Source of the DNA: Halobaculum sp. MBLA0143
Lineage (GTDB): Archaea; Halobacteriota; Halobacteria; Halobacteriales; Haloferacaceae
DNA length: 64,000 bases
Assembly: GCF_041361465.1 (NCBI RefSeq)
Contig: NZ_JBGKAC010000001.1
Coordinates: forward strand, 2,604,001-2,668,000
Direction of reading: 5' to 3'
Below the pieces are notes generated by a model, which worked only from the letters and a program-made list of their open reading frames with translations, did not search any database and had not been told where the DNA came from. Numbering within the stretch: position 1 is the stretch's first letter; each line of letters begins with the position of its first letter. Of the stretch, positions 2,830 to 32,678 are shown one piece after another. A program made the translations under genes and the position numbers.

Positions 2830-3396
2830 TCACCGCTCGGGCGGTTCGATCGGGAACGACGCAACCGCGTCGTACCGCAACGGCGACGGGTGCTCGCGGA
2901 CCCACCGAGCGTCGTCGATCTCCGTCTCCGCCGGGTCAAGCGCCGTCGCGTCCGCTGGGTCGAACGCCGTGTCGTCGCCTGCCGGCACCGCGTCGAAGAC
3001 GACGACGAGCCGGTCGATCGGCGGCCGGTCGCCGTGGACGTGTCGCGCCCGTGTCGCCAGCCTGACGCCCGTGAGTTCGGGGTCGACGCCGGTCTCCTCG
3101 CGGGTCTCGCGGCGAGCCGTCGCCTCCAAGCGCTCGCCCGGCTCCTGTTTGCCCGCCGGCTCCGACCAGCCGTCGGCGTCGCGCTCGCGGACGACCAACG
3201 CCTCCGTGACGCCGTCGACGACCCGTCGGACCCACACGCCTGCGCCGCCGACAGTACCCGCCGCGGCCCGCTCGCGCGTCTGTTCGTACGTCTCGCGGTC
3301 GACGCACCACTCCGTGCGGCGGATTGGAACCTCGTCGTAGTCGTCTCGGAGGCGATCGAGGGTATTCTCGACTACCGCGCAGTACTGATCGGTCAT
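2830..3396 (-). CDS. NUDIX hydrolase
   Basis: A 188-residue protein with a complete Nudix box: a Gly (GKQEPGE), then RRETREETGV, matching GX5EX7REUXEEXGU. The preceding AGTVGGAGVWVRR and LVVRERDADGWSEPAG are the usual beta-strand lead-in. Nudix enzymes hydrolyse nucleoside diphosphate derivatives (NTPs, NADH, ADP-ribose and others); nothing here fixes the substrate. The N-terminal 50 residues (MTDQYCAVVENTLDRLRDDYDEV...) are an extension seen in haloarchaeal members as I remember them. It is the first gene of a likely two-gene unit with the M48 protease. About 220 bases of low-GC intergenic DNA with CRISPR-like repeats lie upstream. Confidence 0.9.
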   Translation of the reverse strand: MTDQYCAVVENTLDRLRDDYDEVPIRRTEWCVDRETYEQTRERAAAGTVGGAGVWVRRVVDGVTEALVVRERDADGWSEPAGKQEPGERLEATARRETREETGVDPELTGVRLATRARHVHGDRPPIDRLVVVFDAVPAGDDTAFDPADATALDPAETEIDDARWVREHPSPLRYDAVASFPIEPPER

Positions 3397-3517
3397 ATGC
3401 GATAACGGCGAAGATAGTAGTCATTAATTGACTCATTCAACTTCCCAGTCTGGCTTACAGCGAAGGATTTAATATGGTGTAAGCTCTAAGCTGAATTACG
3501 AGCCGGGAAAGAGAGTC

Positions 3518-3606
3518 AATGATCCCGCTAGACGGGGAATGAGCCTCTCGGCACTGGCCCTGCGGGAACGGCAGACGATGATCCCGCCAGACGGGGAATG
3601 AGACTG
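3518..3606. repeat. Two-copy CRISPR-like repeat with one spacer (remnant)
   Basis: Two near-identical units lie at 3520-3544 and 3579-3603. Over 25 bases they differ only at one T/C. The core ATCCCGCYAGACGGGGAA contains a short CCCG/CGGG stem. Similarity weakens outward to about 30 bases (3518-3547 and 3577-3606). The 34-base interval between them is unrelated sequence and the period is 59 bases. The core resembles the palindromic repeats of type I-E CRISPR arrays more than the usual haloarchaeal I-B repeat. No cas gene is present in the window. It could instead be a pair of stem-loop sites between the DUF3800 and NUDIX genes. Confidence 0.45.
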
Positions 3607-3620
3607 CCCGCACCGCAGCT

Positions 3621-4307
3621 TTACTGTAAACACAGATTTTCTAGTTTCTTGTGTGTCCCGTCGAACGTTTCACCGCTGTGTCTCTTGAACCGCGCGTTGG
3701 CTGCTACGTCCGCAAACTGTATCCCAGCGACTTTTTCGCTGTCCCAGATCTCGAACTCTATCTGTCGGTCAGAGACCTTCTCGGTGTTCTCAATCCGTTC
3801 TTTTGCGGTCTCCCACACCGATGCATCAAGTAACACTCGGACACGGTCTCTATCGACGTTCTGAAATTGACCGTGGTACAGGAGTGGATTCAACGCTGAA
3901 AGTAGAAGCATCGTGCGTATCGACTCCTCAACTGATGTGTTCCGACTGTTACTGTCAAGAACAGATCTAGCAAGGTCCGTATCTGTCCCACTAAAAGAGT
4001 ACGCAACGGGCGAGTCAAGCGGGAGTCTGGCGTCCGCAACCGTGCCACCGTTGTACACAGTGTGGCGTAGACACTCGAAAAGATAATCTAGACCATCTGG
4101 TGATAGGTCCTTTCCCTTGATTTCTTTTCTTCCTTCTGGTATGTACCCCATGGCTTCCAACTGTTCCTGAAGCGAGACTCGTGCCTCGCTCAGAGCTGCC
4201 CGTGGACCCTTTTCCGAGACGTACCAGCAAGCAGCAACTTCGAAGTGTTCATCACTGGTTATAGTACCGCTCTCGTCAACCGCAGCATAAAGATAATCAG
4301 TCGTCAT
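3621..4307 (-). CDS. DUF3800 domain protein (RNase H-like fold)
   Basis: A 228-residue protein with DUF3800 hallmarks: an N-terminal AAVDESGTI with the acidic DESG motif, a central conserved RVRVLLDAS strand and a C-terminal SEKVAGIQFADVAANA, where the family carries its last acidic residue (QxADxxA). The family has an RNase H-like fold, a predicted nuclease, and is often found in defence islands and mobile regions. The gene has lower GC and more A/T-ending codons than its neighbours, suggesting acquisition. The CRISPR-like repeat pair lies just past its 3' end. The neighbouring DUF420 gene diverges from it. Confidence 0.75.
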   Translation of the reverse strand: MTTDYLYAAVDESGTITSDEHFEVAACWYVSEKGPRAALSEARVSLQEQLEAMGYIPEGRKEIKGKDLSPDGLDYLFECLRHTVYNGGTVADARLPLDSPVAYSFSGTDTDLARSVLDSNSRNTSVEESIRTMLLLSALNPLLYHGQFQNVDRDRVRVLLDASVWETAKERIENTEKVSDRQIEFEIWDSEKVAGIQFADVAANARFKRHSGETFDGTHKKLENLCLQ

Positions 4308-4418
4308 GCTGTATCACTGTGTTCTTCTATGTGGTGAACGCGGGTGAGCATGAATAGACTTCCGGTACAACAGTAGAATATCCGAAGACGCAATACCGTC
4401 GACACACAAACCGTTCGT

Positions 4419-5054
4419 ATGGCAACAGCAGACGCGAGCGGCGCGCTCGCCAGGGTGAGACGGCACCCGAAGGCGACCGTCGCCGTCGTCTCCGTGATCG
4501 GCTACGTAGCCGTCATCGGCACGTTCGCGGGCGTGTTCCCGATTTTCCCGGAACTGACGAAGGGGCAGGTGAACCTCCTCAGCCACGCTATCGCCGTCGT
4601 CAACACCGTCGCCACGGCCTCGCTGGCGCTGGGGTGGTACTGGATCAGACAGAACGAGGTGCGGCGTCACGCCGCCGCGATGGTCACCTCCTTCGCCCTG
4701 ATCCTCGTGTTCCTCGTGCTCTACCTCCTGAAGGTGGGCGGTGGGCCGGGCGAAAAACAGATCCTCATCGAGTCGACGATGTTCCTCGGTGCGTACGCCG
4801 GGACCGTGAAGGCCGCCTACCTCGGGATGCTGGCGATCCACATCTTCCTGTCCGTGGTGTCCGTCCCCGTCGTCCTGTACGCGATCACGCTCGCGGCGAC
4901 CCACTCCGTCGAGGAACTCCGGTCGGAGACCCCACACCGGAAGGTCGGCCGTATCGCCGCCGGCTCCTGGCTCCTGTCGCTGTCGCTGGGCGTCGTGACG
5001 TACGTCCTGCTGAACTGGGTGTACACCTACGAGTTCGTCCAGGTGAGCTACTGA
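4419..5054 (+). CDS. DUF420 family integral membrane protein
   Basis: A 211-residue polytopic membrane protein with about five hydrophobic helices (AVVSVIGYVAVIGTFAGVF, LLSHAIAVVNTVATASLAL, SFALILVFLVLYLLKV, AYLGMLAIHIFLSVVSVPVV, WLLSLSLGVVTYVLL). The LSHAIAVVN and HIFLSVV segments with conserved His, and the HRKVGR loop before the last helix, are typical of DUF420, a family related to cytochrome-oxidase assembly proteins and often encoded near haem-copper oxidases. No oxidase genes lie nearby. The start ATG follows a low-GC intergenic stretch; the DUF3800 gene diverges on the other side. Confidence 0.8.
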   Translation: MATADASGALARVRRHPKATVAVVSVIGYVAVIGTFAGVFPIFPELTKGQVNLLSHAIAVVNTVATASLALGWYWIRQNEVRRHAAAMVTSFALILVFLVLYLLKVGGGPGEKQILIESTMFLGAYAGTVKAAYLGMLAIHIFLSVVSVPVVLYAITLAATHSVEELRSETPHRKVGRIAAGSWLLSLSLGVVTYVLLNWVYTYEFVQVSY

Positions 5055-5140
5055 GCAGCTACCCTATCGACGATACAATCGACACAGCTGGTCAGCGTGC
5101 CAATCCTGGAAACGGATTCAGCAAGCTCGACGACTCGGCG

Positions 5141-5386
5141 GCCGAGGTCAGCCTGAGTTTCGAGACCACACAGAGACGAGTCTACCAATTCCTGTTGTCG
5201 AACGCGGACCAGGCGTTCAGCTAATGCGAGATCACTGACGGCATCAGCACGTCGACCGGCAGTGTCGGACCGACACTTTCGAAGCTCGTCGACTGCGTGC
5301 TCGTCACCAACCGCAGTCACTACTGGACCGTTCCCGACACTGTCCGTGCCCCCCCGGCGGTCTGTCGTGTCGATCACGCCGTCTAG
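5141..5386 (+). pseudogene. Broken winged-helix (MarR-like) regulator
   Basis: Reading one + frame gives a recognisable winged-helix core interrupted by TAA at 5222-5224. Before the stop: QRRVYQFLLSNADQAFS. After it: EITDGISTSTGSVGPTLSKL, then VDCVLVTNRSHYWTVPD. That is helix 1, recognition helices and wing of small haloarchaeal MarR-like or antitoxin-type regulators, which typically read 'vy.fLl.n.d.af..rEI.d.t......v...L..L...glV..r..yW'. No convincing start exists and the frame ends at 5386. I read it as a decayed gene; a real regulator split by a sequencing error is the alternative. An overlapping minus-strand frame (5048-5536) has no family resemblance and was not called. Confidence 0.45.
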
Positions 5387-5554
5387 TATTGAGCTGAGTA
5401 GAATTGGCCCCTCTAGCGTGCAAGCGGGGGACCTGAATCGGTGGAGCTCACTGTAGCAGATTGGATCGTTCAGGACTGTGACCCCTACGCCACGTGCGAC
5501 GGATAGCCGTTCCACTACACAAGGTTTATCAATCATTACGCACTACACTAAACT

Positions 5555-5700
5555 GGTTCCAATCATCTACGGGAGGTGGCTTCGTTTCACTTCCCGGTTC
5601 AAATGTCACTAGATCCATCTACATCGTTGCCTTTTTTACAAAGTAGGATAATAATCTGTCAGGTGACGAGAGTCACCTAACCCGTCGGATGATTGGAACC
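5555..5700. repeat. Low-GC segment bounded by 13-bp inverted repeats
   Basis: A perfect 13-base inverted repeat brackets this segment: GGTTCCAATCATC at 5555-5567 and GATGATTGGAACC at 5688-5700. The 146 bases enclosed are A/T-rich (including a T-run near 5632) and contain a second small inverted repeat, AGGTGAC/GTCACCT, at about 5661-5677. No coding signal is seen inside. The layout resembles a tiny non-autonomous element or a pair of regulator sites, but no target-site duplication is obvious. Confidence 0.35.
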
Positions 5701-5805
5701 ATCTCGGCAGGTTGCGTCACAGCAGACATGGTGATGTGGGCGGTGACAACCGTCCTTCGGCTAGCGCTCATCGCCGTGGGGATGATGCAACTGAAGCGGG
5801 AGTAG
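5689..5805 (+). CDS. Possible 38-residue membrane peptide
   Basis: A short frame starting ATGATTGGA overlaps the right inverted repeat and encodes one hydrophobic helix (MWAVTTVLRLALIAVGMM) ending QLKRE. An internal ATG (MVMWAV) is an alternative start. Small single-helix proteins are common in haloarchaea but this one matches nothing I know. It lies next to the broken regulator and in low-GC DNA, so it could also be chance. The rest of the gap to 6038 holds nothing I can support. Confidence 0.25.
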   Translation: MIGTISAGCVTADMVMWAVTTVLRLALIAVGMMQLKRE

Positions 5806-6038
5806 TAGGTAACGAACCTTCCTATGGTAAACGGGGGTGGTAATGTGCCACCCTCCGTGAGAGGGATGGAGTTGGGATTCGGTTTCCCTGCGTCCGACGG
5901 GTCTACTCATTTACCATCATTAGAGACACAGTCTGCTCGCTCCTCAGTCGTCCACGAGCGAGTGAACCGGAGTCATCGGGGGGATCGTCGACCCCGCCTT
6001 CCCCCTCCCGAACGACTTTCTCCCGCGCGGCACACGGT

Positions 6039-15449: not shown

Positions 15450-16568
15450 TCAGCCGTCGACGCTCACCGGGACCTCGCCGCCGCCGTTGCGCGGGGTGGT
15501 CTCCTCGTTGGCTGCCGCCGTCTCCAACAGCTCCTGGTAGCGGTTGCGGATCGTCACCTCGGAGATATCCGTCACCTCGCTGACCTCCCGCTGAGTGAGG
15601 TCGGCGTTGGTGAGGACGCCGGCGGCGTACAGTGCCGCCGCGGCCAACCCGACCGGGGACTTCCCGGAGTGGACGGCCGCTTCCTTGCCGACGGTCAACA
15701 GCTCGCGGGCCCGGCGTTCCGTCTCGTCGGAGATGTCCAGCCTCGAGGCGAACCGCGGGAGGTACTCCGCCGGGTCGGCGGGCTGGACCTCGAGCTCCAG
15801 CTCCTTCACGATGTAGCGGTACGCCCGTTGGAACGTCTCCTCGTCCACGCGCGAGACGCGCGCCACCTCGTCGATGGAACGCGGGACGCCCGCCATCCGG
15901 GCGGCAGCGTGCAGCGACGCGGTGGCGATCCCCTCGATGGAACGGCCGGGGAGCAGATCGTCCTCCAGTGCCCGGCGGTAGATGACGGAGGCCGTCTCCC
16001 GGACGTTCTCCGGCAGCCCCAGCGCCGAGGCCATCCGCTCGATCTCGCCGAGCGCCTGCTTCAGGTTGCGTTCGCTGTGGTCGGAGGTGCGCAGCCGCTC
16101 GTTCCAGGTTCGCAGCCGTTGCATCTTCTGGCGCTGGCTCGACGACAGCGCGTTGCCGTAGGCGTCCTTGTCCTGCCAGCCGATGTTGGTGGACAGCCCC
16201 TGGTCGTGGAGCATCTTCGTCGTCGGAGCGCCGACACGCGACTTCTGGTCGCGCTCTGCGGAGTCGAACGCACGCCACTCCGGCCCGCGGTCGATCTCGT
16301 CTTCCTCCACGACGAGCCCGCAGTCGGCACACACCGTCTCGCCGTGGCGTTCGTCGTCGACGAGGCTCCCATCACACTCCGGACAGACCTCCGTTTCCTC
16401 GGACTCGTGTCGCTCCTCGCGTTCTCGGTCGCGGACGCGTTCTCCACCGTCGGTCAGTGTCTCCCCTCCGGGGACGCCACCACCACCCTCCTCGGGCCCG
16501 ATGTCGTCCATCTCGTCGTCGCTGCGGTACGTGCTATCCGTGTCTTTGGGTCGGGTGTGTCGTGTCAT
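15450..16568 (-). CDS. tfb: Transcription initiation factor TFB
   Basis: A 372-residue archaeal TFIIB. An acidic disordered N-terminus (about 60 residues) leads to the zinc ribbon CPECDGSLVDDERHGETVC-ADCG, the B-reader/linker (RGPEWRAFDSAERDQKSRVGAP, split by the EWR motif) and two cyclin-like repeats (about residues 165-350) that bind the BRE and TBP. The second repeat ends with the helix-turn-helix VSEVTDISEVTIRNRYQELL. Haloarchaea usually encode several TFBs with different promoter preferences. This one diverges from the terpene-synthase-like gene across 430 low-GC bases, and an inverted repeat lies just upstream of its start, so specialised or autoregulated expression is possible. Confidence 0.94.
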   Translation of the reverse strand: MTRHTRPKDTDSTYRSDDEMDDIGPEEGGGGVPGGETLTDGGERVRDREREERHESEETEVCPECDGSLVDDERHGETVCADCGLVVEEDEIDRGPEWRAFDSAERDQKSRVGAPTTKMLHDQGLSTNIGWQDKDAYGNALSSSQRQKMQRLRTWNERLRTSDHSERNLKQALGEIERMASALGLPENVRETASVIYRRALEDDLLPGRSIEGIATASLHAAARMAGVPRSIDEVARVSRVDEETFQRAYRYIVKELELEVQPADPAEYLPRFASRLDISDETERRARELLTVGKEAAVHSGKSPVGLAAAALYAAGVLTNADLTQREVSEVTDISEVTIRNRYQELLETAAANEETTPRNGGGEVPVSVDG

Positions 16569-16612: not shown

Positions 16613-16997
16613 TGTCTTCACCTGTTATTAGTCTTCAAAGTAAAAGAATGTGTCGTCGTACTCCCGATACCGTCTGTATCTCGTTACTCGATAGAGGACA
16701 CAACAGATCGAACGAACTCTTATGAATATAGCGGAACGAGTCCAGAGCCTCGATCTCCCCCGAGTGGCGTCGTCGCGCCGGAGGCGCGCGACATCCGCTC
16801 CGAGAAGCTCCGACAGGTGGCCCTCCCTTGAAAACAATCGAAATAGTATTATTTCTACATTAAAGTATAAAATTCCTTGCCAGACACATTGCTCAGTTGG
16901 GTTGGCCAGCGTTTATTACTTTAAAATTTGAATCTTAGATACGTTTCTCTGTTTTTGTCACGATAATATTAAGACAGAAGAGTCCGTCCGGGTTGGT
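16613..16997. promoter_or_regulatory. Low-GC divergent control region of tfb and the terpene-synthase-like gene
   Basis: This stretch is far richer in A and T than the flanking genes, particularly 16830-16980. For the + strand gene, TAATATT at about 16964-16970 is a TATA-like box some 30 bases before the ATG at 16998, followed by AAGACAG. For tfb, an AATAAC on the minus strand near 16625 is a possible TATA element. A short GC-rich block at 16745-16830 interrupts the region and looks like a fragment of foreign coding sequence, but no gene could be assigned. Confidence 0.45.
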
Positions 16998-18098
16998 ATG
17001 GCACAAGAGACCCCGCACACACAGAATCGTGGCGGTGATCCGGAGCCCATCGCGGAGGGAGCGACCATTCAGGTACCGGCGATGACGTCCATCGAGCGGC
17101 AGGCAGAGATGTCGGACCTCGGCCTCGATCTCGACGAGGCGACACAGGCAGAACGGCTCGAACGAGTTCGTGAGACGGAACTGTCCGACGAGATGCGCGA
17201 GATCGTTCAGGACGACGGTGTCCTGGGCGACCGCGACCTCCTCCTCTGGAAGTGGATCTACCACATCTTCGGCGAGCCGCTGACACTGGAGACAGTTTCC
17301 GAAGAACACTTCCAAGAGGCGCGGGAGGCTGCTTCGCTCGTCGCTATCTACATCACTCTCATCGACGACATCGGGGAGAAGCTGGGAGACCGAGAGACGT
17401 TCTGGGAGCTGTCGAAGGCAGCCTACCCGGGGGTCGAGCCCGACTGGGAGCGCGAGGACATCAACCGTGACTACGCGATCAGCACGAAGCGGGTGTGGGA
17501 GGCGTTGATGAACCGTATCGAGAACGCCCCCCGATCAGAGGAGTTCATGGAACCGTTGATGTTCAGTCTCAGACAGTCGATCCAGGGGATGGACTACGCG
17601 CGGCTGTCCGCAGACTACGCCTCGTTCATGAACCCGGAGGAGACGTGGTACTTCGAGACGCAGGCCATCGGGCTGTACCTCTTCTGGAACGTCGACCTGA
17701 TGTTCTCGCCGGAGTTCGATCACGACGACTACCAGGCGTTCCGGAGGGTCGCTTTCGAACTCCAGCACATGTGGCGGCTGGGCAACTGGATCATCACCTG
17801 GCACCGTGAGGTGTTCGAGCGAGACTACAGTGCCGGGATCATCGTCGAAGCGCTCCACCAGGGGATCATCGACGAGTCGGACCTCGACGCACTCGACGAG
17901 GGAGAGCTAGAGCCGGAAGAAGTCATCGAGAAGGTGGAGTCGGCGGGGTTCGTCGAACAGTTCATCTGGAACTGGAAACAACGCCGTGACCGAGTCAGAA
18001 GCCAGGACTTCGGGATGTCGTCGCTCGATAGCACGGAGATGGTGTCGAAGATGGAGTGGCTGATGCAGAGCCACTTCGCCACCGAAGGCCACCGTTGA
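16998..18098 (+). CDS. Class I terpene-synthase-like protein
   Basis: A 366-residue, almost entirely helical protein. It carries both metal-binding signatures of class I terpene cyclases: an Asp-rich motif IDDIGEKLGD (D123-D124, DDxxE form) and an NSE-type triad NWIITWHRE (N263, T267, E271; NxxxTxxxE). Their spacing of 140 residues is what bacterial terpene cyclases have. The helix before the triad (NPEETWYFETQAIG) sits where the diphosphate-sensing region should be, but the usual Arg there is not obvious. The C-terminus (FIWNWKQRRDR) is basic and aromatic. No prenyltransferase FARM/SARM pair is present, so it is not a GGPP synthase. Probable role: ionisation and cyclisation of FPP or GGPP, cytoplasmic. 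The two small paralogues and the P450 downstream suggest tailoring of the product. Activity is inferred only. Confidence 0.7.
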   Translation: MAQETPHTQNRGGDPEPIAEGATIQVPAMTSIERQAEMSDLGLDLDEATQAERLERVRETELSDEMREIVQDDGVLGDRDLLLWKWIYHIFGEPLTLETVSEEHFQEAREAASLVAIYITLIDDIGEKLGDRETFWELSKAAYPGVEPDWEREDINRDYAISTKRVWEALMNRIENAPRSEEFMEPLMFSLRQSIQGMDYARLSADYASFMNPEETWYFETQAIGLYLFWNVDLMFSPEFDHDDYQAFRRVAFELQHMWRLGNWIITWHREVFERDYSAGIIVEALHQGIIDESDLDALDEGELEPEEVIEKVESAGFVEQFIWNWKQRRDRVRSQDFGMSSLDSTEMVSKMEWLMQSHFATEGHR

Positions 18099-18143
18099 GT
18101 CGTTCTCATAACCCTCACATTCATATTTGAATTCCTCGAAAAG

Positions 18144-18152
18144 CTTATAAAC
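18144..18152 (+). promoter_or_regulatory. TATA box of the first paralogue gene
   Basis: CTTATAAAC is centred 28 bases before the ATG at 18176, the distance expected for a leaderless haloarchaeal transcript. It implies that this gene has its own promoter in addition to any read-through from the terpene-synthase-like gene. Confidence 0.55.
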
Positions 18153-18175
18153 AGCTATGGACACTGTGCCAGTGT

Positions 18176-18703
18176 ATGCCCGATCCAAGAATCAGTGGCG
18201 CGTACGTCGCCGCGTTCGTTCAGAGTGCGGGGGAGGTCTCTCCGGTGTTCGAAAAGAAGGCGAAAGAGACGCTGGCCGACAGGAACATCACTAATCCGGA
18301 CCCAGAGTCGTGGTACGATAACGAGAAGTTCGGCGAAGCGTTGTTCGAAATCGTCGACAAGGCGGGCGAGAAGACCGTCGCGCAGGCTGGCAAGGAGATG
18401 GTGGCGATCACCGAGGAAATCCTCGAACAGGACGAGATCGAGGCCGGGCTGGAGGTTCTTACCGCCCAACACGAGGAGATCCACGAGAGTCACACGGTGG
18501 CCGACGCTGGGATTCTCACGTACGAACAGCTCTCGCCGACGAGCTACCGCGTCGCCTCTGAAGGAGGATACGAGTACCCAGCGTCGCTGGTGAAAGGAGC
18601 CGCCGAGGAGACCGTCCGTCGAACCGGCGGCCCGAGTAGAGTCGACGTGTCGGACGTAGAGACGGAGTCGAACGAACCGTTCGCGTTCGAAGTCTCCTGG
18701 TAA
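18176..18703 (+). CDS. Small protein of unknown family, paralogue A of terpene cluster
   Basis: A 175-residue acidic protein with no signal peptide or membrane helix. It is clearly homologous to the next gene: shared YVAAFV-SAGEVS-VFEK near the start, an SWY motif near residue 46, a G-KT-AQAG helix, a QHE motif near residue 98, a YEYPASLVKG segment and the identical ending EVSW. The layout (helical first half with WY, then a strand-rich end finishing in an aromatic W strand) recalls V4R/haem-NO-binding-like small-molecule sensor domains, as I remember them, but I cannot place it in a family. Position between a terpene cyclase and a P450 suggests binding or carrying the terpenoid or a haem-type ligand. 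That is inference. Confidence 0.6.
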   Translation: MPDPRISGAYVAAFVQSAGEVSPVFEKKAKETLADRNITNPDPESWYDNEKFGEALFEIVDKAGEKTVAQAGKEMVAITEEILEQDEIEAGLEVLTAQHEEIHESHTVADAGILTYEQLSPTSYRVASEGGYEYPASLVKGAAEETVRRTGGPSRVDVSDVETESNEPFAFEVSW

Positions 18704-18730
18704 CCAGGCATCGAATATTCTCTCCTGGCC

Positions 18731-18748
18731 AAGATATATATACTGTCT
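18731..18748 (+). promoter_or_regulatory. TATA box and flanking CTGTCTA motif of paralogue B
   Basis: AAGATATATATACTGTCTA spans 18731-18749. The TATA core is centred 28 bases before the ATG at 18765, fitting a leaderless transcript. Nearly the same string (AAGATATATATCTGTCTA) occurs at 20592-20609 in front of the P450 gene, which is transcribed in the opposite direction. Confidence 0.6.
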
Positions 18749-18764
18749 ACATAGATAGGACACT

Positions 18765-19295
18765 ATGCCCGATGCTCAATTGAACGGGTTGTACGTCGCA
18801 GCATTTGTCGAGAGCGCGGGAGAAGTCTCCGCGGTCTTCGAGAAGCGTGCGATGCAAATGCTGACCGAAAACAACATCGACGACCTCGACGAGGACTCTT
18901 GGTACTACGCCGAGGACTTTGAGGAGGCGATGGTGGAGATCGAAGAACAGGTCGGCTCGATGACCACTCAGCAGGCAGGCGAGAAGATGATCGAGGTGAA
19001 CGAGCAGATCCCCGCGCAAGACTCCGCTCGTGACGGCTTCGACGTACTGAAAGAACAACACGAGTCGAGCTACCGAGGGTACTCCGTCGACGAGGTCGGC
19101 CAGTATCGAGTCGACCGACTGAGCGAAGACCACTTCTGCGTTGCGACATACGGCGGGTGGGGCTATCCAGAGGCGTTCACGAAGGGGCTGCTCAAGGGTG
19201 TGATCCAGGAGACGGAGGCGGGCGTCACGAACCCGGACTTGGATCCGACAGACACGGAAGGTGAGGAGGTCTTCGCGTACGAAGTTAGCTGGTGA
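18765..19295 (+). CDS. Small protein of unknown family, paralogue B of terpene cluster
   Basis: A 176-residue acidic protein homologous along its whole length to the preceding gene. Conserved points: LYVAAFVESAGEVSAVFEKR at the start, SWYYAEDF, GSMTTQQAGEKM, the LKEQHES motif, GWGYPEAFTKG and the EVSW end. Identity is moderate, so the duplication is old. It carries a single cysteine (HFCVATYGG) absent from paralogue A. It has its own strong TATA box, and its stop codon lies three bases from the stop of the convergent P450 gene. Retention of two copies in one cluster suggests a heteromer or two ligand specificities; there is no direct evidence for either. Confidence 0.6.
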   Translation: MPDAQLNGLYVAAFVESAGEVSAVFEKRAMQMLTENNIDDLDEDSWYYAEDFEEAMVEIEEQVGSMTTQQAGEKMIEVNEQIPAQDSARDGFDVLKEQHESSYRGYSVDEVGQYRVDRLSEDHFCVATYGGWGYPEAFTKGLLKGVIQETEAGVTNPDLDPTDTEGEEVFAYEVSW

Positions 19296-19298
19296 GAC

Positions 19299-20570
19299 TC
19301 ATCGCTGGGTGAACGACAGCTCAACGGGGCCGTCCGGTACTGCGGTCAGGCTGGCACGGAGGCCGAACGACTCCGTCACTCTGTCGAGGTCGTACGCTCG
19401 CAGAAGTGCGGCGACGACCAGTTTCGCTTCGGCCCGAGCGAACGTCTCGCCGAGACACCGTCGCGGACCCGCCCCGAACGGGAAGAAGGCGAACGACGGG
19501 CGGCCGGCTTCCTCACCGAACCGTTCCGGTCGGAACGCCTCTGGCTCGTCCCACCACCGTTCGTCACGGTGGACGACCCACTGAGGCAGGTACAGCAGCG
19601 CCCCCTCCGGAAGCGACCAACTACGGATCGTCACGGGCTGTCTCGTCCGCCTGAAGATCGTGTGAGACGGCGGGTACAGCCGGAGGGCCTCGTCGATCAC
19701 CTGTTCCGTGTAGTCCAACGCTTCGAGGTGTTCGGGACCTGGCTTCGCGTCGCCGACAACTGCCGTCACCTCCTCTCGGATCGCACGCGCAACGCGGCCG
19801 TGGTCCGCGAGCAGGAACAGCGTGTACGTAAGCGTCAGCGCTGTCGTCTCGTGGGCCGCGAACAGCATCGTAATCATCTCGTCGCGGATCCGTTCGTCCG
19901 TGTACCCCGCCTCGCTGTCCGGCCCCGCCGCGAGCAACGCCGACAGCATGTCGTCTCCCTCGCCGGTCTCTCGCTCCGCGATCATCTCCTCGATCCGATT
20001 GACGAGTTGTTCGCGTCCGGTCTCGTACCGTTGCTGGACGTCGTCCGACACTGGCCCCGCCGTCGACTCCTCGAGGAACCAATCGGTGATTGCGTCCGCG
20101 CCGGCCGCAATTCGACCGTCGTCGTCCTGCTCGTCGAACAGCGTCTCCAGCATCACCCGCAGTGTGAGGTCTGTCATCTTGTCGCGCACATCGACGACCC
20201 CTGTCTCCGGCAGTTCGGCCACTGCATCAGCCGTCAGATCACGGATCGTCTCCGCGTACGCCCGTACCCGGTCGGGTCGAAACGAAGACTGAAGTGTCCC
20301 GCGCTGTGCTCGCCACTGGTCGCCGGACGCAGAGACCACGCCGCCACCGAACACCTCGTCGAACCCCTCGAACTTCGTGTACTTGTCCTCTTCTCCGAAC
20401 AGGACTGTCTCGATATCGTCCGGGTGAAACAGCATGAACTGCTTCGTGTCTGGTGCGGAGACCTGGACCACATCACCCTCTTGTGCCCACTCCAGACGGC
20501 GCTCGAACGGATTCTCACTGTACTGCTGGAGCGTGCCGACCGTGGGGGGGAGTTCCGAATCCGATGACAT
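19299..20570 (-). CDS. Cytochrome P450
   Basis: A 423-residue soluble P450 with all diagnostic parts: the I-helix oxygen-activation motif AAHETT (residues 238-243), the K-helix ExxR as EALR (294-297), the PERF segment (FRPERFGEE, about 347-354) and the haem-thiolate loop FPFGAGPRRCLG with Cys372. There is no N-terminal membrane anchor, as in bacterial and archaeal enzymes; redox partners would be ferredoxin-type and are not encoded nearby. It converges on the paralogue B gene. Together with the terpene-synthase-like gene this makes oxidation of a terpene skeleton the most economical reading, though fatty acid or carotenoid substrates are possible. The ATG at 20570 is preceded at 28 bases by a TATA box. 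Confidence 0.92.
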   Translation of the reverse strand: MSSDSELPPTVGTLQQYSENPFERRLEWAQEGDVVQVSAPDTKQFMLFHPDDIETVLFGEEDKYTKFEGFDEVFGGGVVSASGDQWRAQRGTLQSSFRPDRVRAYAETIRDLTADAVAELPETGVVDVRDKMTDLTLRVMLETLFDEQDDDGRIAAGADAITDWFLEESTAGPVSDDVQQRYETGREQLVNRIEEMIAERETGEGDDMLSALLAAGPDSEAGYTDERIRDEMITMLFAAHETTALTLTYTLFLLADHGRVARAIREEVTAVVGDAKPGPEHLEALDYTEQVIDEALRLYPPSHTIFRRTRQPVTIRSWSLPEGALLYLPQWVVHRDERWWDEPEAFRPERFGEEAGRPSFAFFPFGAGPRRCLGETFARAEAKLVVAALLRAYDLDRVTESFGLRASLTAVPDGPVELSFTQR

Positions 20571-25768: not shown

Positions 25769-28057
25769 TCACTCCGCGGTCGCCCGTTCGAGGTCGTCGA
25801 CGGCCCGGCCGAACACCGTCGCGGCGCGGCGGTACGCCGACGCCGCGGTCGGATCGACACCGAGCCTGTCGAACGCCGCGAGCGCGTCGTCGTGGCCGGT
25901 GTGGCGGAGGAACGCCCGGTAGTCGGCCGGCGAGAGGTCGCCGTCCGCGAGCCCCTCGACGGCTGCGGTCGCGCCGAGGACACCCAGAACGTACTGGTGA
26001 CCCGCGTAGGCGTCGCGGAGCCCGCCGCCGAGCCAGTCGCGGCCGTCGCGGTCCACGGGCGGTTCGACGACCGGGTCGAACCGCGCTGCGGCGCGGCGGT
26101 TCGCCTCGCGGGCCCGCTCCGGCGTGAGTTCGGTCCCGTCGGCGACGATCTCCGCGAGACGGTGGCCGAAGGCGGTGCTGCGGGCGTTCCGGTAGAGGTT
26201 GCCGCCCAGCAGTTCGACGCGTCGTTCGCGGGCGGCGTCGGCCAGCGACCCCTCGGTCTCCGTCAGGTGGTCCGCGAGCAGGAGTTCGTGGACGAGCGAG
26301 GGGACCTCCGAGACGGGGACGCGGTTACACGCGTACCGCGTCGGGCCGTCGGTGTGGTACGAGACGTTCAGGGCGTGGCCGAGCTCGTGTGCGAGGAAGA
26401 ACGTCGTCCGAACGTTCTCGCGAAAGTTCGCCAGCACGTACGGGCCGTCGTCCGGTGCGGCGGGACACACCGCCGGAATGTCCGTCCGTTTGTTCGCGGT
26501 CGGGAACGCGTCGACGCGCCGTTCGTCCAGCAGCCGTCTGACCCGAGCGACGTAGTCGTCGCCGAGCGGTTCCAGCGCGGCCAGGATGTGGTCGGTCGCC
26601 GTCTCGTACGACACTGTCGGGTCGGCGTCGACCAACGGGACACGGGTGTCCCACGGGCGGAGCGTGTCGACGCCGAGTCGGTCTCGCCGGAGTCGCCGGG
26701 CACGGTCGTACGGGTCTCGCTCGGCGACGACGGTCTCGACGAGCGTGTCATGGACCGACTCGGGGAGCCGGCTCCGGATCCCCGTCGGCGGGTACGACGC
26801 CGCGGCCAGCGAGTGCTCCCGGTGGGAGTCGTAGCCGCGGACGGTCGCGGTCGCACGGGCGGCTTTCAGCTTCTCGCCGACGGCCCGAGTGAGCGTGTGT
26901 TCGAACCGATCGAGTTCCGACCGGATCGTCTCGTACACCCGTCGTCGGTAGTCCCGGTCGGGGTTGCGGAGCTCGGTCTGGACGTTCCCGATCCGGAGCT
27001 CGACGTCGGTGCCGTCCGGTCGTTCGACGATCCCGGGATCGAGATCCTCGGTCGTCACCGCTCGGATCGTCCGTTTCGCCCCGCCGAGCGGCTCGTCGAC
27101 GGTCGCCATCGTCTCCTCGACGGCCGACTCGGGGGTGTGACGGCCCCGGCGGCGGAGACTCTCGGCGTACGGACGGTAGTCGGTGGGGATCGAGGCGGTC
27201 GTGTCGTTGGGCTCTGTACCGTCCGTGTCAGTACGCCGTTCGGCGTCGACTGCGTCGGCGAGCGTATCGAACCGCTCGTCGTCGACTGCGTCGGCGAGCG
27301 CGTCGAACTGCTCGTCGTCGACTGCGTCGGCGAGCGTATCGAACCGCTCGTCGTCGACTGCGTCGGCGAGCGCGTCGAACTGCTCGTCGTCGACTGCGTC
27401 GGCGAGCGTATCGAACCGCTCGTCGTCGACTGCGTCGGCGAGCGTATCGAACCGCTCGTCGTCGACTGCGTCGGCGAGCGTATCGAACCGCTCGTCGTCG
27501 ACTGCGTCGGCGAGCGTATCGAACCGCTCGTCGTCGACTGCGTCGGCGAGCGTATCGAACCGCTCGTCGTCGACTGCGTCGGCGAGCGTATCGAACCGCT
27601 CGTCGTCGACTGCGTCGGCGAGCGCGTCGAACCGCTCGTCGTCGAGAGAAGCGAGACGGCGGCAGGCCGCGGCGACGGCCGGGTCGAAGGCGGCGTCGAG
27701 GTCGCGGTTCGCGCGCCGGAGGTCGGTGGCCGCGTCCTCGTCCGTGTGGACGTAGCCGTACAGCGCGGCGTACAGTTGGAGGCTGGCCCGCTCGCGGTGG
27801 CAGGCGGCGGTGGCGTCGAGCAGTTCGCGCAGCGCGTCGGGTGACGCCGGGTCACGGCTCGCCGTCGTCTCGAGGTCCGCGACGCGCTCACGGAACGCCC
27901 CGGCGGCGCGGTGCCACGCCGCCGGGTCGTCGTAGAGGCGTGTCAGGTCGAAGCGGTACTCCGGGTCGATCTCGGCTCTGGCTGGGAGACTCACGTGTGT
28001 CTGTGGTGGGTGGCGGTCGGCGACTGTGCGGGTGCTCGTCGGCGTGGAGTCCGGCAC
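25769..28057 (-). CDS. pepF: M3 family oligoendopeptidase F with repeat-expanded linker
   Basis: A 762-residue M3 metallopeptidase that cleaves short peptides in the cytoplasm. The catalytic half is typical: AHELGHALN with zinc motif HELGH at residues 557-561, the FRENVRTTFF lead-in and a downstream Glu helix. The N-terminal half has the usual RFDLTRLYDDPAAW start. The oddity is residues 139-270, where a 12-residue unit DDERFDTLADAV is repeated eleven times (two copies read EQFDA). Typical PepF has about 600 residues, so the repeats explain most of the extra length. They should form a long charged helix. Several long frames on both strands here are shadows. Confidence 0.88.
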   Translation of the reverse strand: MPDSTPTSTRTVADRHPPQTHVSLPARAEIDPEYRFDLTRLYDDPAAWHRAAGAFRERVADLETTASRDPASPDALRELLDATAACHRERASLQLYAALYGYVHTDEDAATDLRRANRDLDAAFDPAVAAACRRLASLDDERFDALADAVDDERFDTLADAVDDERFDTLADAVDDERFDTLADAVDDERFDTLADAVDDERFDTLADAVDDERFDTLADAVDDEQFDALADAVDDERFDTLADAVDDEQFDALADAVDDERFDTLADAVDAERRTDTDGTEPNDTTASIPTDYRPYAESLRRRGRHTPESAVEETMATVDEPLGGAKRTIRAVTTEDLDPGIVERPDGTDVELRIGNVQTELRNPDRDYRRRVYETIRSELDRFEHTLTRAVGEKLKAARATATVRGYDSHREHSLAAASYPPTGIRSRLPESVHDTLVETVVAERDPYDRARRLRRDRLGVDTLRPWDTRVPLVDADPTVSYETATDHILAALEPLGDDYVARVRRLLDERRVDAFPTANKRTDIPAVCPAAPDDGPYVLANFRENVRTTFFLAHELGHALNVSYHTDGPTRYACNRVPVSEVPSLVHELLLADHLTETEGSLADAARERRVELLGGNLYRNARSTAFGHRLAEIVADGTELTPERAREANRRAAARFDPVVEPPVDRDGRDWLGGGLRDAYAGHQYVLGVLGATAAVEGLADGDLSPADYRAFLRHTGHDDALAAFDRLGVDPTAASAYRRAATVFGRAVDDLERATAE
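27248..27643. repeat. Eleven 36-bp tandem repeats inside pepF
   Basis: Eleven head-to-tail 36-base units, in phase with the codons, occupy exactly 396 bases. Variation is tiny: units differ at only two or three positions (GTATCGAACC versus GCGTCGAACT), and two variant units are separated by one standard unit, as if blocks were copied. Such homogeneity implies recent expansion by slippage or unequal exchange. The unit length keeps the reading frame in all copy numbers. Confidence 0.95.
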
Positions 28058-28284
28058 ACCGCGGTCTGCCCGGGGTGGGACGGCGACGAGCGGGTCGTGG
28101 ACGGGAGTCGTCCGGAGAAGTCAGCGGGTCATCGGTCGCCTGCCGTTACTCCCGTTCGCATGGGCAGACTACGTGAAACCACCGGCCGCGTGCACCACCT
28201 TCACACACTAGCAGCGCGTCGCCGCGTCGCCCTCGCCGCACACCTCCGCACCACTTTAGCCTCCGCGGCCCGTCTGTCCCGTCG

Positions 28285-28542
28285 ATGGCGAATCTCACGC
28301 TGTACGAACTGGAGGGCTGTCCGTACTGTGAAAAGGTGAAGAACAAGCTGTCGGCGTTGGAGTTGGAGTACGACTCCGAGATGGTGCCGCGCTCGCACGG
28401 CGAACGCACCGAGGTAGAGGAGATCAGCGGTCAGACCGGCGTCCCCGTGCTCGTCGATCCCGAACACGACGTCGACGGCATGCCGGAGTCGGACGACATC
28501 GTTGCGTATCTGGAAGAGACGTACGGCAGCGGCGCGGCCTGA
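28285..28542 (+). CDS. Glutaredoxin-like thiol oxidoreductase
   Basis: An 85-residue thioredoxin-fold protein with the dithiol active site CPYC (residues 12-15) in LYELEGCPYCEKVK, the cis-Pro segment TGVPVLVDP and the C-terminal SDDIVAYLEETYG helix of glutaredoxin/GST N-domain proteins. In haloarchaea, which use gamma-glutamylcysteine rather than glutathione, such proteins handle disulfides in the cytoplasm. It diverges from pepF and precedes the OLD nuclease gene by 70 bases, with a TATA-like stretch between them suggesting separate transcription. Confidence 0.9.
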   Translation: MANLTLYELEGCPYCEKVKNKLSALELEYDSEMVPRSHGERTEVEEISGQTGVPVLVDPEHDVDGMPESDDIVAYLEETYGSGAA

Positions 28543-28613
28543 TAGCAGACCGGAAGGCGTTCGGTTATAGCTACTGGCAATATTTTTAATACTGTGGCAA
28601 GCACCGGCTAGCT

Positions 28614-30635
28614 GTGCAACTGGAGGAAGTTCGCGTCAGGGGGTTCCGGAACATCGAGGACTCGGGCTGGGTCGACGTTCACGAGGACGTGACGACGCTG
28701 GTCGGAAAGAACGAGAGCGGGAAGACGTCGTTTCTGGAGGCGGTCGGGCGGCTGTCTGACACCGACGAGATCGAGGACGACGACATCAACAACCAGATGG
28801 AGGATGTCGGCGACTCGTTTCCTGTCGTCCAAGCGAAGTTCTCGGGGAGTGCAGACGGGGTCCCTGAGAGTGTCGGGACCCACGAAGGCATGGTCTACAA
28901 ACGGAAGGACGGACGCATCCGAGTGACAGATAACCTCGGTATCGACGGGAACAGAGTCGTCCTGTTGGAGGATCCGATTCGGTACGTCGAAGACCGTTTC
29001 GGCGCATCTCACAGTGACGTGCAAGAGGAGTCGCAGATCGTCGGTGTCAACGAGTCGGACCTTCCCTCACGGTATGACGATTTCAGTAACGATCCTGACT
29101 CAAAAGATATTTTTGATACTATAGAATCAATCGTAGACTCAACTACGATCTCAGGGGTCGAAGAGGCCCTCAGCAGCATCCGAGGGTTTCTCGACGACAA
29201 CGAACCGACGATCATCTCGATCAGAGACGTTCTGCCCGACCTCGTCTACTCAACAGATATCGACACGATCTCTAACAGCTGTGGCCGAAAATCTCTCAGC
29301 GAGGAACAAAACGCCCCGTTTCGACGGCTGCTCACACTCGGAGGAGTCGACCATCGAAGCTACCACCAACTGGACAAGACAACACGGCTCAGCCAGCGAG
29401 AGAACGCGCAAGAAGAGATCAGAGAGCGGTTCAACAGCTTCTGGAATCAGAAGTCAATTGGAATTGGCATACAGTACTCCGAGAAAGACGACGAGTTCCT
29501 GCTGATGATTAAGGACACCGAGCTTCTGGACCGCGATTCTGGAGAGCTCCGTGAGTTGGATCGCTCACTCACCGAGCCCTCGAAACGGAGTCGTGGATTT
29601 CGGTGGTTTCTCTCGTTCTTCGTCGATCAGGTCACTCGGGAGAACGGTGTCGACGAGACCGACGACACAGTGTACCTGATCGACGACCCGGCGGTCTACC
29701 TCCACCCCGAAGGGAAGAAGAACTGGCTCGACACCATCGAGGACCTGACTGACGACGCGCAGTTCCTCTACTCGTCACACTCCCCGTTCCTGATCGACGA
29801 GACACGTCCCGACCGGATCAGGATCGTCGAGGATCGTCCTGGAGACCGAACGCAGGTCACCGACGAGATCTTCCAGGGGGACAGTGAGACGTTGGAGCCA
29901 CTCCGGCACACGCTCGGGATCGGTCTCGGTGACTCGCCGTTCGTCAACCGGCGGAAGATCCTGGTCGAGGGACCGTCAGACTACTTCATTCTCACCGGTG
30001 TCCTGAACTATCTTGACGAACACGAAGATGACACACCGCTCTCGGCCGAGGAAGTGACGTTGTACCCGGTCGGTGGTGCCGACGAGATGCCAGACGCCGG
30101 GGACTGGATGCGCTCGGAGGAGTTCGCGTTCGTGTTCCTCCTCGACAAAGATCAAAAAGGTAAGGATGTCGAAGATGACATCGAAGAGCACGGTTTACTC
30201 GACGAGAGACGGGTGTTCTTTCTGGAACACGAGCGGGCCAAGAACTCGTTCAACGTCGAGATCGAGGACATGTTCCACCCGAAGTTCTACGTCGACTGTG
30301 TCAACGAGGTGTACGGTCGAGAGGAGGTCCGTGAGACGATAGAGGACTCCAACGACGGTCCCGACGATCTCTCTAATCTCGAATCGATCAGCGTCACCGA
30401 AGCAGACGAAGAAGGGTGGCTCCTCGACGGCGAACAGGAGTACAAGGGGATGAAGATCGTCACGAAGATCGAAGATGCGTTCGCCGAGCAGGGGTACAGT
30501 GATCTCGATCTCGACAAGGTCCGTGTGGCGAAGAACGTTCAAACCAAGCTTCAGAACGGCGACGGCTTCCGTGAGGAGAACGTGAGTGCGTTCAAAGGCA
30601 TCCTCGGTCGGATGCACGGCGTCCTGTACGACTGA
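28614..30635 (+). CDS. Solitary OLD-family ATPase/TOPRIM nuclease
   Basis: A 673-residue protein: an ABC/SMC-like ATPase split by a long insertion, then a TOPRIM nuclease. Seen are Walker A VGKNESGKTSF (residues 31-40), the signature-like RSRGFRWFLSFF, Walker B VYLIDDPAVYLHPEGK, a switch His (YSSHSPFL) and TOPRIM residues ILVEGPSDYF and FVFLLDKDQKG. This is the architecture of OLD nucleases, including GajA of the Gabija anti-phage system. No GajB-like UvrD helicase follows: the next gene is a convergent ABC exporter. It therefore looks like a stand-alone class 1 OLD, possibly a defence or repair gene. Codon use is more A/T-rich than its neighbours. It starts with GTG. Confidence 0.88.
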   Translation: MQLEEVRVRGFRNIEDSGWVDVHEDVTTLVGKNESGKTSFLEAVGRLSDTDEIEDDDINNQMEDVGDSFPVVQAKFSGSADGVPESVGTHEGMVYKRKDGRIRVTDNLGIDGNRVVLLEDPIRYVEDRFGASHSDVQEESQIVGVNESDLPSRYDDFSNDPDSKDIFDTIESIVDSTTISGVEEALSSIRGFLDDNEPTIISIRDVLPDLVYSTDIDTISNSCGRKSLSEEQNAPFRRLLTLGGVDHRSYHQLDKTTRLSQRENAQEEIRERFNSFWNQKSIGIGIQYSEKDDEFLLMIKDTELLDRDSGELRELDRSLTEPSKRSRGFRWFLSFFVDQVTRENGVDETDDTVYLIDDPAVYLHPEGKKNWLDTIEDLTDDAQFLYSSHSPFLIDETRPDRIRIVEDRPGDRTQVTDEIFQGDSETLEPLRHTLGIGLGDSPFVNRRKILVEGPSDYFILTGVLNYLDEHEDDTPLSAEEVTLYPVGGADEMPDAGDWMRSEEFAFVFLLDKDQKGKDVEDDIEEHGLLDERRVFFLEHERAKNSFNVEIEDMFHPKFYVDCVNEVYGREEVRETIEDSNDGPDDLSNLESISVTEADEEGWLLDGEQEYKGMKIVTKIEDAFAEQGYSDLDLDKVRVAKNVQTKLQNGDGFREENVSAFKGILGRMHGVLYD

Positions 30636-30644
30636 ACGGCCCTC

Positions 30645-32678
30645 TCAGTCGTCGTCGGACAGCGTCTCCGCCCGGCGTTCCCGTGCCTGTTCCAAGAACG
30701 CCGACGGCAGCGACTCGATCTCGCCGGCCTGGACGCCCCACAGCTTCGCGTACAGCCCGTCCGCGGTCAGTAGTTCCTCGTGACCGCCGCGCTCGACGAT
30801 CCGGCCGTCCTCCAACACGAGGATGCGGTCGGCGTCCTTGATCGTGGACAGTCGGTGAGCGATCACGAACGTCGTGCGGTCGGCCGCGAGGCGGTCGAGC
30901 GACCGTTGGATCAGCAGTTCCGTCTCCGTGTCGACGGCGGAGGTGGCCTCGTCTAAGATCAGGATCTCGGGGTCCTGGAGCACCGTCCGAGCGATAGAGA
31001 GGCGCTGCCGTTGGCCGCCGGAGAGCTTCACGCCGCGCTCGCCGATTCGGGTGTCGTAGCCGTCCGGGAGGTTCCGGACGAACTCGTCGGCCTCGGCCGC
31101 CTCACACGCCGCGACGACGGCCTCGCGGTCGGCGTCGAACCGGCCGTACCGGACGTTGTCCGCGACGGAGCCGTCGAACAGGAACGTGTCCTGCGAGACG
31201 TACCCCAGCGAGGACCGGAGCGACGCCGTCTCGATCTCCCGCACGTCGTGGCCGTCGATCCGGATCGCCCCCTCGTCCACGTCGTACAGCCGGAGCAGCA
31301 GCTTGACCAGCGTCGACTTTCCGGCGCCGGTCGGGCCGACGAACGCCACCGTCTCCCCGGGCTCGGCGACGAAGTCGACCCCGTCGATCACGGGGTCCTC
31401 TTCGGCGGACTCGTCGGGGCCGGCCGCGTCTCCCGCGGCGGCCGCCACGCCGCCGTCGGCCCACGCCGCGTCTCCGTCGTCGGCGGTCGTCGGCGCGCCG
31501 GGGTCGCCGTCCTCGTAGCCGAACGTCACGTCGTCGTACGAGACGCGGCCCACGGGGTCCGTCAGCGTCACGTCGCCGTCGCCGTCCGTGATCCGGCGGG
31601 GCACGTCCTGGAGCCCGAACACGCGCTCGCTGGAGGCCTTGGCGTTCTGGTAGGAGTCGACGATGTTCGACACCTCCGCCAGCGGCGCGGTGAACCGCTG
31701 GGTCAAGAAGAGGAAGGTGACGAACTGGCCGGCCGACAGCGTCCCGGTGAGCGGGCCGGGCGCGGTGCCGGTGGTGAGCCACAGCCCGCCGACCAGGAAC
31801 GTCGTGGCGAAGGCGAGCCCGGCGAACAGCTCCATCCCCGGACGGTAGACGTAGTTGAGCTTCAACACCGCCATCGTGTCCCGGAAGTACGAGAAGGAGG
31901 CGTCCCGGACCCGGTCCGTCTCGTACGACTCCGTCCCGGAGGTCTTCACGAGCTGCATCCCGCCGAGCGCGTTCTCCAGCCGAGTGTTGAGGTTGCCGAC
32001 GGACTCCCGTTGGTCCGTGTACCGCGGCTCGACGGCCCGCATGAACCACCAGGTGAACCCCACCATCAACGGGACGGCGACGAGCGTCAGCGCCGCCAAC
32101 TGCGGGTTCTCCGTGAACAGGACGAGCGCGATCCCGAGCACCATCACGCCCAGCCGGACGCTGTTCTGGAGCGCGTTGTCGAGGAACCGCTCCAGGTTGG
32201 TGGCGTCGTTGTTGAGGACGGACATCACCTCTCCCGTCTGTTTCCCGTCGAAGAACCACATGTCGAGTGACTGCATCTTCTCGAACGACTCCACCCGGAC
32301 GGCGTGCATCACTCGGTGTGCGAAGTTGTTGGCGGCGACGCCGTAGATCCAGGTGAACACCGCCGTCGCCAGGAACGACCCGACGATCAGCGTCACCGAC
32401 AGCCAGAACTGCGCTGCGTCCGTCCCGGGGACGAACCGATCCGGGAGAAACAACAGGTCGTACCCCGCCCGGTCCAAGAAGACCGCGTCGATCGCGACCC
32501 CGAGGACGATCGGCGGGACGAGACTCGTCGCCCGCGCGAACACGTTCGCGATCATCCCCCCGACGAGCCAGTGGAGCTCGGGGGTGCCGTACTCTCGAAA
32601 CAGTCGTCGCAACGGGGCGTCGACTCGGTCGCGGTACTCTTCGAAGACACTCTCCTCGTCGTCCGCTGCCGTTCCCAT
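30645..32678 (-). CDS. ABC-type multidrug/lipid exporter, fused membrane and ATPase domains
   Basis: A 677-residue half-transporter of the MsbA/Sav1866 type. The first 330 residues form the six-helix exporter domain; the ATPase follows with Walker A VGPTGAGKST, Q-loop YVSQDTFLF, signature LSGGQRQR, Walker B ILILDEATS and switch AHRLSTIKDAD. A disordered acidic insertion (GAPTTADDGDAAWADGG and onward) separates the first beta-strand of the ATPase from the rest. It would work as a homodimer, exporting drugs or lipids. I chose ATG at 32678 (MGTAADDEES); the frame continues upstream to 32915 through a repeat region that is probably untranslated. Confidence 0.93.
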   Translation of the reverse strand: MGTAADDEESVFEEYRDRVDAPLRRLFREYGTPELHWLVGGMIANVFARATSLVPPIVLGVAIDAVFLDRAGYDLLFLPDRFVPGTDAAQFWLSVTLIVGSFLATAVFTWIYGVAANNFAHRVMHAVRVESFEKMQSLDMWFFDGKQTGEVMSVLNNDATNLERFLDNALQNSVRLGVMVLGIALVLFTENPQLAALTLVAVPLMVGFTWWFMRAVEPRYTDQRESVGNLNTRLENALGGMQLVKTSGTESYETDRVRDASFSYFRDTMAVLKLNYVYRPGMELFAGLAFATTFLVGGLWLTTGTAPGPLTGTLSAGQFVTFLFLTQRFTAPLAEVSNIVDSYQNAKASSERVFGLQDVPRRITDGDGDVTLTDPVGRVSYDDVTFGYEDGDPGAPTTADDGDAAWADGGVAAAAGDAAGPDESAEEDPVIDGVDFVAEPGETVAFVGPTGAGKSTLVKLLLRLYDVDEGAIRIDGHDVREIETASLRSSLGYVSQDTFLFDGSVADNVRYGRFDADREAVVAACEAAEADEFVRNLPDGYDTRIGERGVKLSGGQRQRLSIARTVLQDPEILILDEATSAVDTETELLIQRSLDRLAADRTTFVIAHRLSTIKDADRILVLEDGRIVERGGHEELLTADGLYAKLWGVQAGEIESLPSAFLEQARERRAETLSDDD

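Follow-up and report, generated by a model that had tools for sequence, protein, structure and literature searches.

Genes of the locus and their setting

The window, a stretch of 64,000 nucleotides from the 3.58 Mb, two-contig genome of a haloarchaeon, carries a 366-residue ORF (hereafter TS), two small proteins, a cytochrome P450 and a transcription factor paralogue, arranged as follows:

Upstream side, together with tfb: citrate synthase gene, named by reading its translation and not by a profile search
15450–16568, minus strand: tfb, encoding a paralogue of transcription factor B (TFIIB-type); it diverges from TS and lies 430 bp upstream of it
16719–16997, plus strand: intergenic stretch upstream of TS, AT-rich in parts, noted on reading the sequence; likely location of a putative TS promoter
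16998–18098, plus strand: terpene-synthase-like ORF (TS), 366 aa, with DDIGE at 123–127, N263/T267/E271 and D276
18176–18703, plus strand: small protein 1, with 175 residues and a predicted H-NOX fold that lacks the heme motif
18765–19295, plus strand: small protein 2, a 176-residue paralogue of the one before it
19299–20570, minus strand: cytochrome P450, 423 aa, with the full set of catalytic motifs and running convergently towards small protein 2
Past the P450: MoeB/ThiF-type E1 gene, nicotinamide-nucleotide adenylyltransferase and lon, likewise named from their translations and not by a profile search

The genes reported in the first-pass annotation are all present. The 366-residue ORF contains D123/D124 (in IDDIGE) and, 140 residues further on, the N263/T267/E271 triad. 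The two small proteins are homologous (175 and 176 aa, 42% identical), and the P450 that abuts them by its 3' end is intact, as it matches PF00067 at 1.5e-69 and keeps the ExxR motif (EALR at 294, with E294), the FGAGPRRCLG Cys heme loop at 365 and the I-helix AHETT. The stop codons of the P450 and small protein 2 are 3 bp apart.

The GC content of TS (60.7%), the small proteins (60.6 and 58.8%) and the P450 (64.5%) lies below that of the window (67.9%), which had been taken as a sign of acquisition. The GC drop was confirmed, but recent horizontal gain was rejected as its explanation, since two congeners, G345 and G173, have a syntenic locus in which the drop is similar but milder. Both have kept the order tfb-TS-small protein, which argues against recent acquisition, and between congeners third-position changes predominate, as expected of constrained coding genes. 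Elsewhere in the window, positions 3001–6000 and 28001–31000 are equally low in GC (0.58–0.60). The window tfb clusters with the TFB-like neighbours of TS in G345, G173 and a further haloarchaeon, G002; the latter neighbour matches PF00382 at 3.3e-36, and in G002 a small protein adjoins TS as well. In the TS tree, the window clade (100/100 support) consists of the genus together with G002, G121 and G114. The last three span two families, which suggests that TS has moved between haloarchaea.

The 366-residue protein and its family

Taken alone, the window TS had no significant Pfam match, no terpene-synthase model at E ≤ 10, no NCBIfam match, nothing significant from PADLOC and no relative by sequence among the solved structures in the PDB. 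Its relatives, however, match terpene-synthase models. PF19086 (Terpene_syn_C_2) matches 13 of 23 TS family members, with a best value of 3.9e-8, and Terpene_synth_C matches seven of the 23. Two of ten members tested singly exceed the curated PF19086 cut-off over nearly the full profile, and more than 40 relatives lie above this cut-off across both motifs. The relatives that match have about 30–40% identity. A whole-genome search with the same profile placed 50 of 391 genomes above the cut-off, mostly through TS family members and usually over profile positions 3–180 of 199, and none of 14 control genomes. The terpene-synthase reading of 16998–18098 in the first-pass annotation is thus borne out by homology, but not by the window protein itself.

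The family is wider than that annotation had seen. Homology searches found members in 118 of 391 Halobacteria genomes and in 38 of 86 genera, and a phylum-wide profile search added members in non-halobacterial families, several of whose genomes are methanogens as judged by the presence of mcrA. In an alignment of 91 family members, taken from haloarchaea and from elsewhere in their phylum, D123, D124, N263, E271 and D276 are identical throughout, position 127 is always E or D and position 267 always T or S. Because these positions are invariant in all 91 sequences, the D-rich and NTE motifs are not a product of chance, and the invariance of the metal-binding residues points to catalysis. The conserved residues peculiar to the family include R249, R260, D233 and D276. 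A diphosphate-sensor Arg about 46 residues before the Asn of the NSE motif is common in bacterial and fungal enzymes, where it is a secondary feature and not universal. At the matching distance before N263, the 91-sequence alignment shows no conserved Arg, and the window TS has W at position 217; from 132 to 262, conservation of basic residues is limited to R179, R249 and R260.

The AlphaFold model of the window TS was built from an input alignment of two sequences only and is poor (pLDDT 42.6, pTM 0.34); in its helix pattern a long helix holds the DD close to its end, and N263 falls within another helix. The top Foldseek matches of this model were almost all prenyl or terpene synthases, at E 0.1–1 with low TM-scores and none significant, and the best PDB matches were farnesyl and geranylgeranyl diphosphate synthases and a plant sesquiterpene synthase. 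These matches were discounted as proof because of the low confidence of the model. A profile-profile comparison used a thin template, consisting of pentalenene synthase (sequence identical to 1PS1) and four haloarchaeal synthases of bacterial type. The alignment covered 207 columns with both metal motifs in register and scored 22.4, compared with a decoy mean of 15.6 (SD 3.5, maximum 27.1), which is about 2 SD above the decoys; one decoy outscored the template, over 27 columns only. This comparison is only suggestive.

The same data bear on the question whether the protein is a cyclase at all. A protein with the class I fold could instead be a prenyl diphosphate phosphatase or resemble a prenyltransferase, and yield a linear prenol or a prenylated compound. 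In favour of this, both metal motifs are kept while the canonical diphosphate-sensor Arg is not, and the nearest folds of the poor model are mostly FPP synthases. However, the second motif, NxxxTxxxE, is of the terpene-cyclase type and not the second DDxxD of prenyltransferases, and the relatives match terpene-synthase models; we consider a non-cyclase unlikely. Since the model is poor and the sensor Arg is absent, we use the label 'class I terpene-synthase-like' and do not present the protein as a proven member. With this reservation, the core claim of a terpene-synthase-like enzyme is well supported by the data on the family. The most likely identity of the 366-residue protein is that of a class I terpene-synthase-type enzyme, from an archaeal family that is large, divergent and hitherto unannotated.

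Several members deserve separate mention. A very divergent branch (branch length 2.7) comprises L166, L167, L171 and L172 (genomes G679, G523, G677 and G661) and has the motifs VDD(S)xD and NxxNTWKxE; two of its four genomes were checked for mcrA and both were positive. Genome G262 has two family genes in tandem (L131:7826-10208), and in G075 a 505-residue ORF (L129:7263-8777) combines a response-regulator receiver, HalX and a full TS-like domain with intact metal motifs. G182 (L152) and G230 (L153, L154) each encode two clear terpene synthases of bacterial type (PF19086 matches down to 1e-49), whose N-terminal extension on reading resembles an SRPBCC domain. Relatives of TS also occur on plasmids, where all six records found call them 'hypothetical protein' and one overlaps a second annotated gene; none was found in the viral contigs searched.

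The P450, the small proteins and a possible pathway

The P450 has as its top NCBIfam models pentalenene oxygenase and albaflavenone monooxygenase, with scores far below the equivalog cut-offs. The first-pass annotation had proposed that the locus makes and oxidises a cyclic terpenoid, a claim that can be examined through the conservation of the neighbourhood. The proposal is borne out only in part. Within the genus, the linkage stands for the window and G173. In G173 a P450 that is 54% identical to that of the window follows TS and the small protein, while the contig of G345 stops just after the second small protein. Outside the genus, the linkage was found at only three of 78 TS loci (P450 within about 8 kb), and the small proteins of the proposed cluster have a predicted H-NOX fold. 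The P450 and TS could be unrelated neighbours, with the P450 associated with the small H-NOX-fold proteins or with neither them nor TS, which would leave the claim for TS unaffected. This would agree with the low count outside the genus and with the frequency of P450s in haloarchaea (342 of 391 genomes). It would also agree with a second contig of G345, which lacks TS but has another P450 of this kind and a further small-protein paralogue in convergent orientation, although this contig ends about 170 bp beyond. Against it, G173 retains the order TS-small protein-P450 despite considerable divergence (69% identity for TS, and the lower value given above for the P450). We rate the chance that the two are unrelated as somewhat below even, and it is only within the genus that tailoring of the TS product by the P450 is plausible.

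The AlphaFold model of small protein 1 is confident (pLDDT 88.8) and matched H-NOX domains in a Foldseek search of the PDB (best 3nvr, E 5.8e-6, TM 0.66), and the best PDB profile match was a heme NO-binding protein (E 0.028). A function as heme H-NOX proteins was nevertheless rejected, because the 28-member alignment of the family (A4) contains no invariant His and no YxSxR and the family has no Pfam HNOB match. DUF2378 matches three members, and the family (18176–19295 and paralogues) has a remote kinship to DUF2378. Eight copies were found in the host genome and at least one copy in 104 of 391 genomes, mostly away from synthases. The small proteins are therefore confidently predicted to have an H-NOX fold without heme ligands and to belong to a multi-copy, scattered family of haloarchaeal paralogues. 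With this fold and eight copies in the genome, they were rejected as terpenoid enzymes and probably do not catalyse a step of the pathway; judging from the model, they may bind a ligand, possibly the product of TS.

The following scheme would combine these elements. TS would bind FPP or GGPP via Mg2+, which D123/D124 (together with E127) and N263/T267/E271 would coordinate. If TS has the class I fold and activity, the diphosphate would then be ionised and a terpene, cyclic or rearranged, set free. In the genus, the adjoining P450 would plausibly hydroxylate this product, as their adjacency suggests. From their position and fold, the two heme-less H-NOX-fold proteins could plausibly be carriers or sensors that bind some hydrophobic ligand, which may be the TS product. 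As a whole, a class I terpene-synthase-type enzyme with plausible P450 and H-NOX-fold partners in the genus is, in our judgement, a likely explanation of the locus and the best one.

Regulatory neighbours and comparison with known systems

Outside the genus, TS adjoins BAT/HTH_10 or HalOD1 regulators more often than a P450. At 81 TS loci, with domains checked in one representative per neighbour cluster, a BAT/PAS/GAF/HTH_10 regulator was near the TS family gene in 26 cases (about a third) and a HalOD1 protein in 20 (about a quarter). This could imply that the family is itself a sensor or regulator that uses the terpene-synthase fold to bind isoprenoid diphosphates and report isoprenoid status. 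Such a role would suit the regulators and histidine kinases adjoining many homologues, the one response regulator-HalX-synthase fusion and the tfb next to TS in the window. It seems very unlikely to us, however, as regulators of the BAT/HTH_10 and HalOD1 types are plentiful in haloarchaeal genomes anyway and the wholly invariant metal-binding residues argue for an enzyme. The terpene-synthase-type enzyme, which we prefer, could also be part of an archaeal terpenoid signalling module. Its product (with that of the P450 in the genus) would be read by the heme-less H-NOX-fold proteins, which would act via dedicated transcription factors, namely tfb in the window and BAT/HTH_10 or response-regulator partners elsewhere; we regard this joint reading as speculative and unlikely.

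To our knowledge, there is hardly any record of class I terpene cyclisation from archaea, and the known archaeal terpenoids are lipids and carotenoids. A 2023 survey found that, beyond halocin and bacterioruberin, no archaeal cluster was confidently tied to a secondary metabolite (PMC10105419). The title of Samusevich et al. (bioRxiv 2024.01.29.577750, cited in PMC12797696) states terpenoid biosynthesis in archaea, and the archaeal synthases of that work may include the present family. Our literature search found nothing on a locus combining TS, H-NOX-fold proteins and a P450. A divergent terpene-synthase-like family in about 30% of the sampled haloarchaea and in some methanogens would open a little-mapped area of archaeal secondary metabolism, and its ties to H-NOX-fold proteins and regulators make it possible to test for a role in signalling in haloarchaea that are amenable to genetics.

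Compared with the synthases of PF19086, e.g. pentalenene synthase (1PS1), TS has in common the DDxx(E/D) and N-x3-T/S-x3-E motifs at class I spacing and a helical secondary structure, and many of its relatives lie above the curated cut-off. It differs in that the window protein escapes Pfam, has NW in place of the usual ND and lacks the canonical diphosphate-sensor Arg. The small proteins share the predicted fold of the H-NOX heme nitric oxide/oxygen-binding domain, but not its conserved proximal His, YxSxR or HNOB match. Lastly, bacterial terpene clusters of the pentalenolactone and albaflavenone type pair a cyclase with a P450. The two genes of the present locus differ from these in being convergent, so that they form no operon, and in being linked in one genus only. 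Likewise, however, a cyclase-like gene and a P450 are neighbours, and the models that best fit this P450 are those of the corresponding bacterial oxygenases, for pentalenene and albaflavenone.
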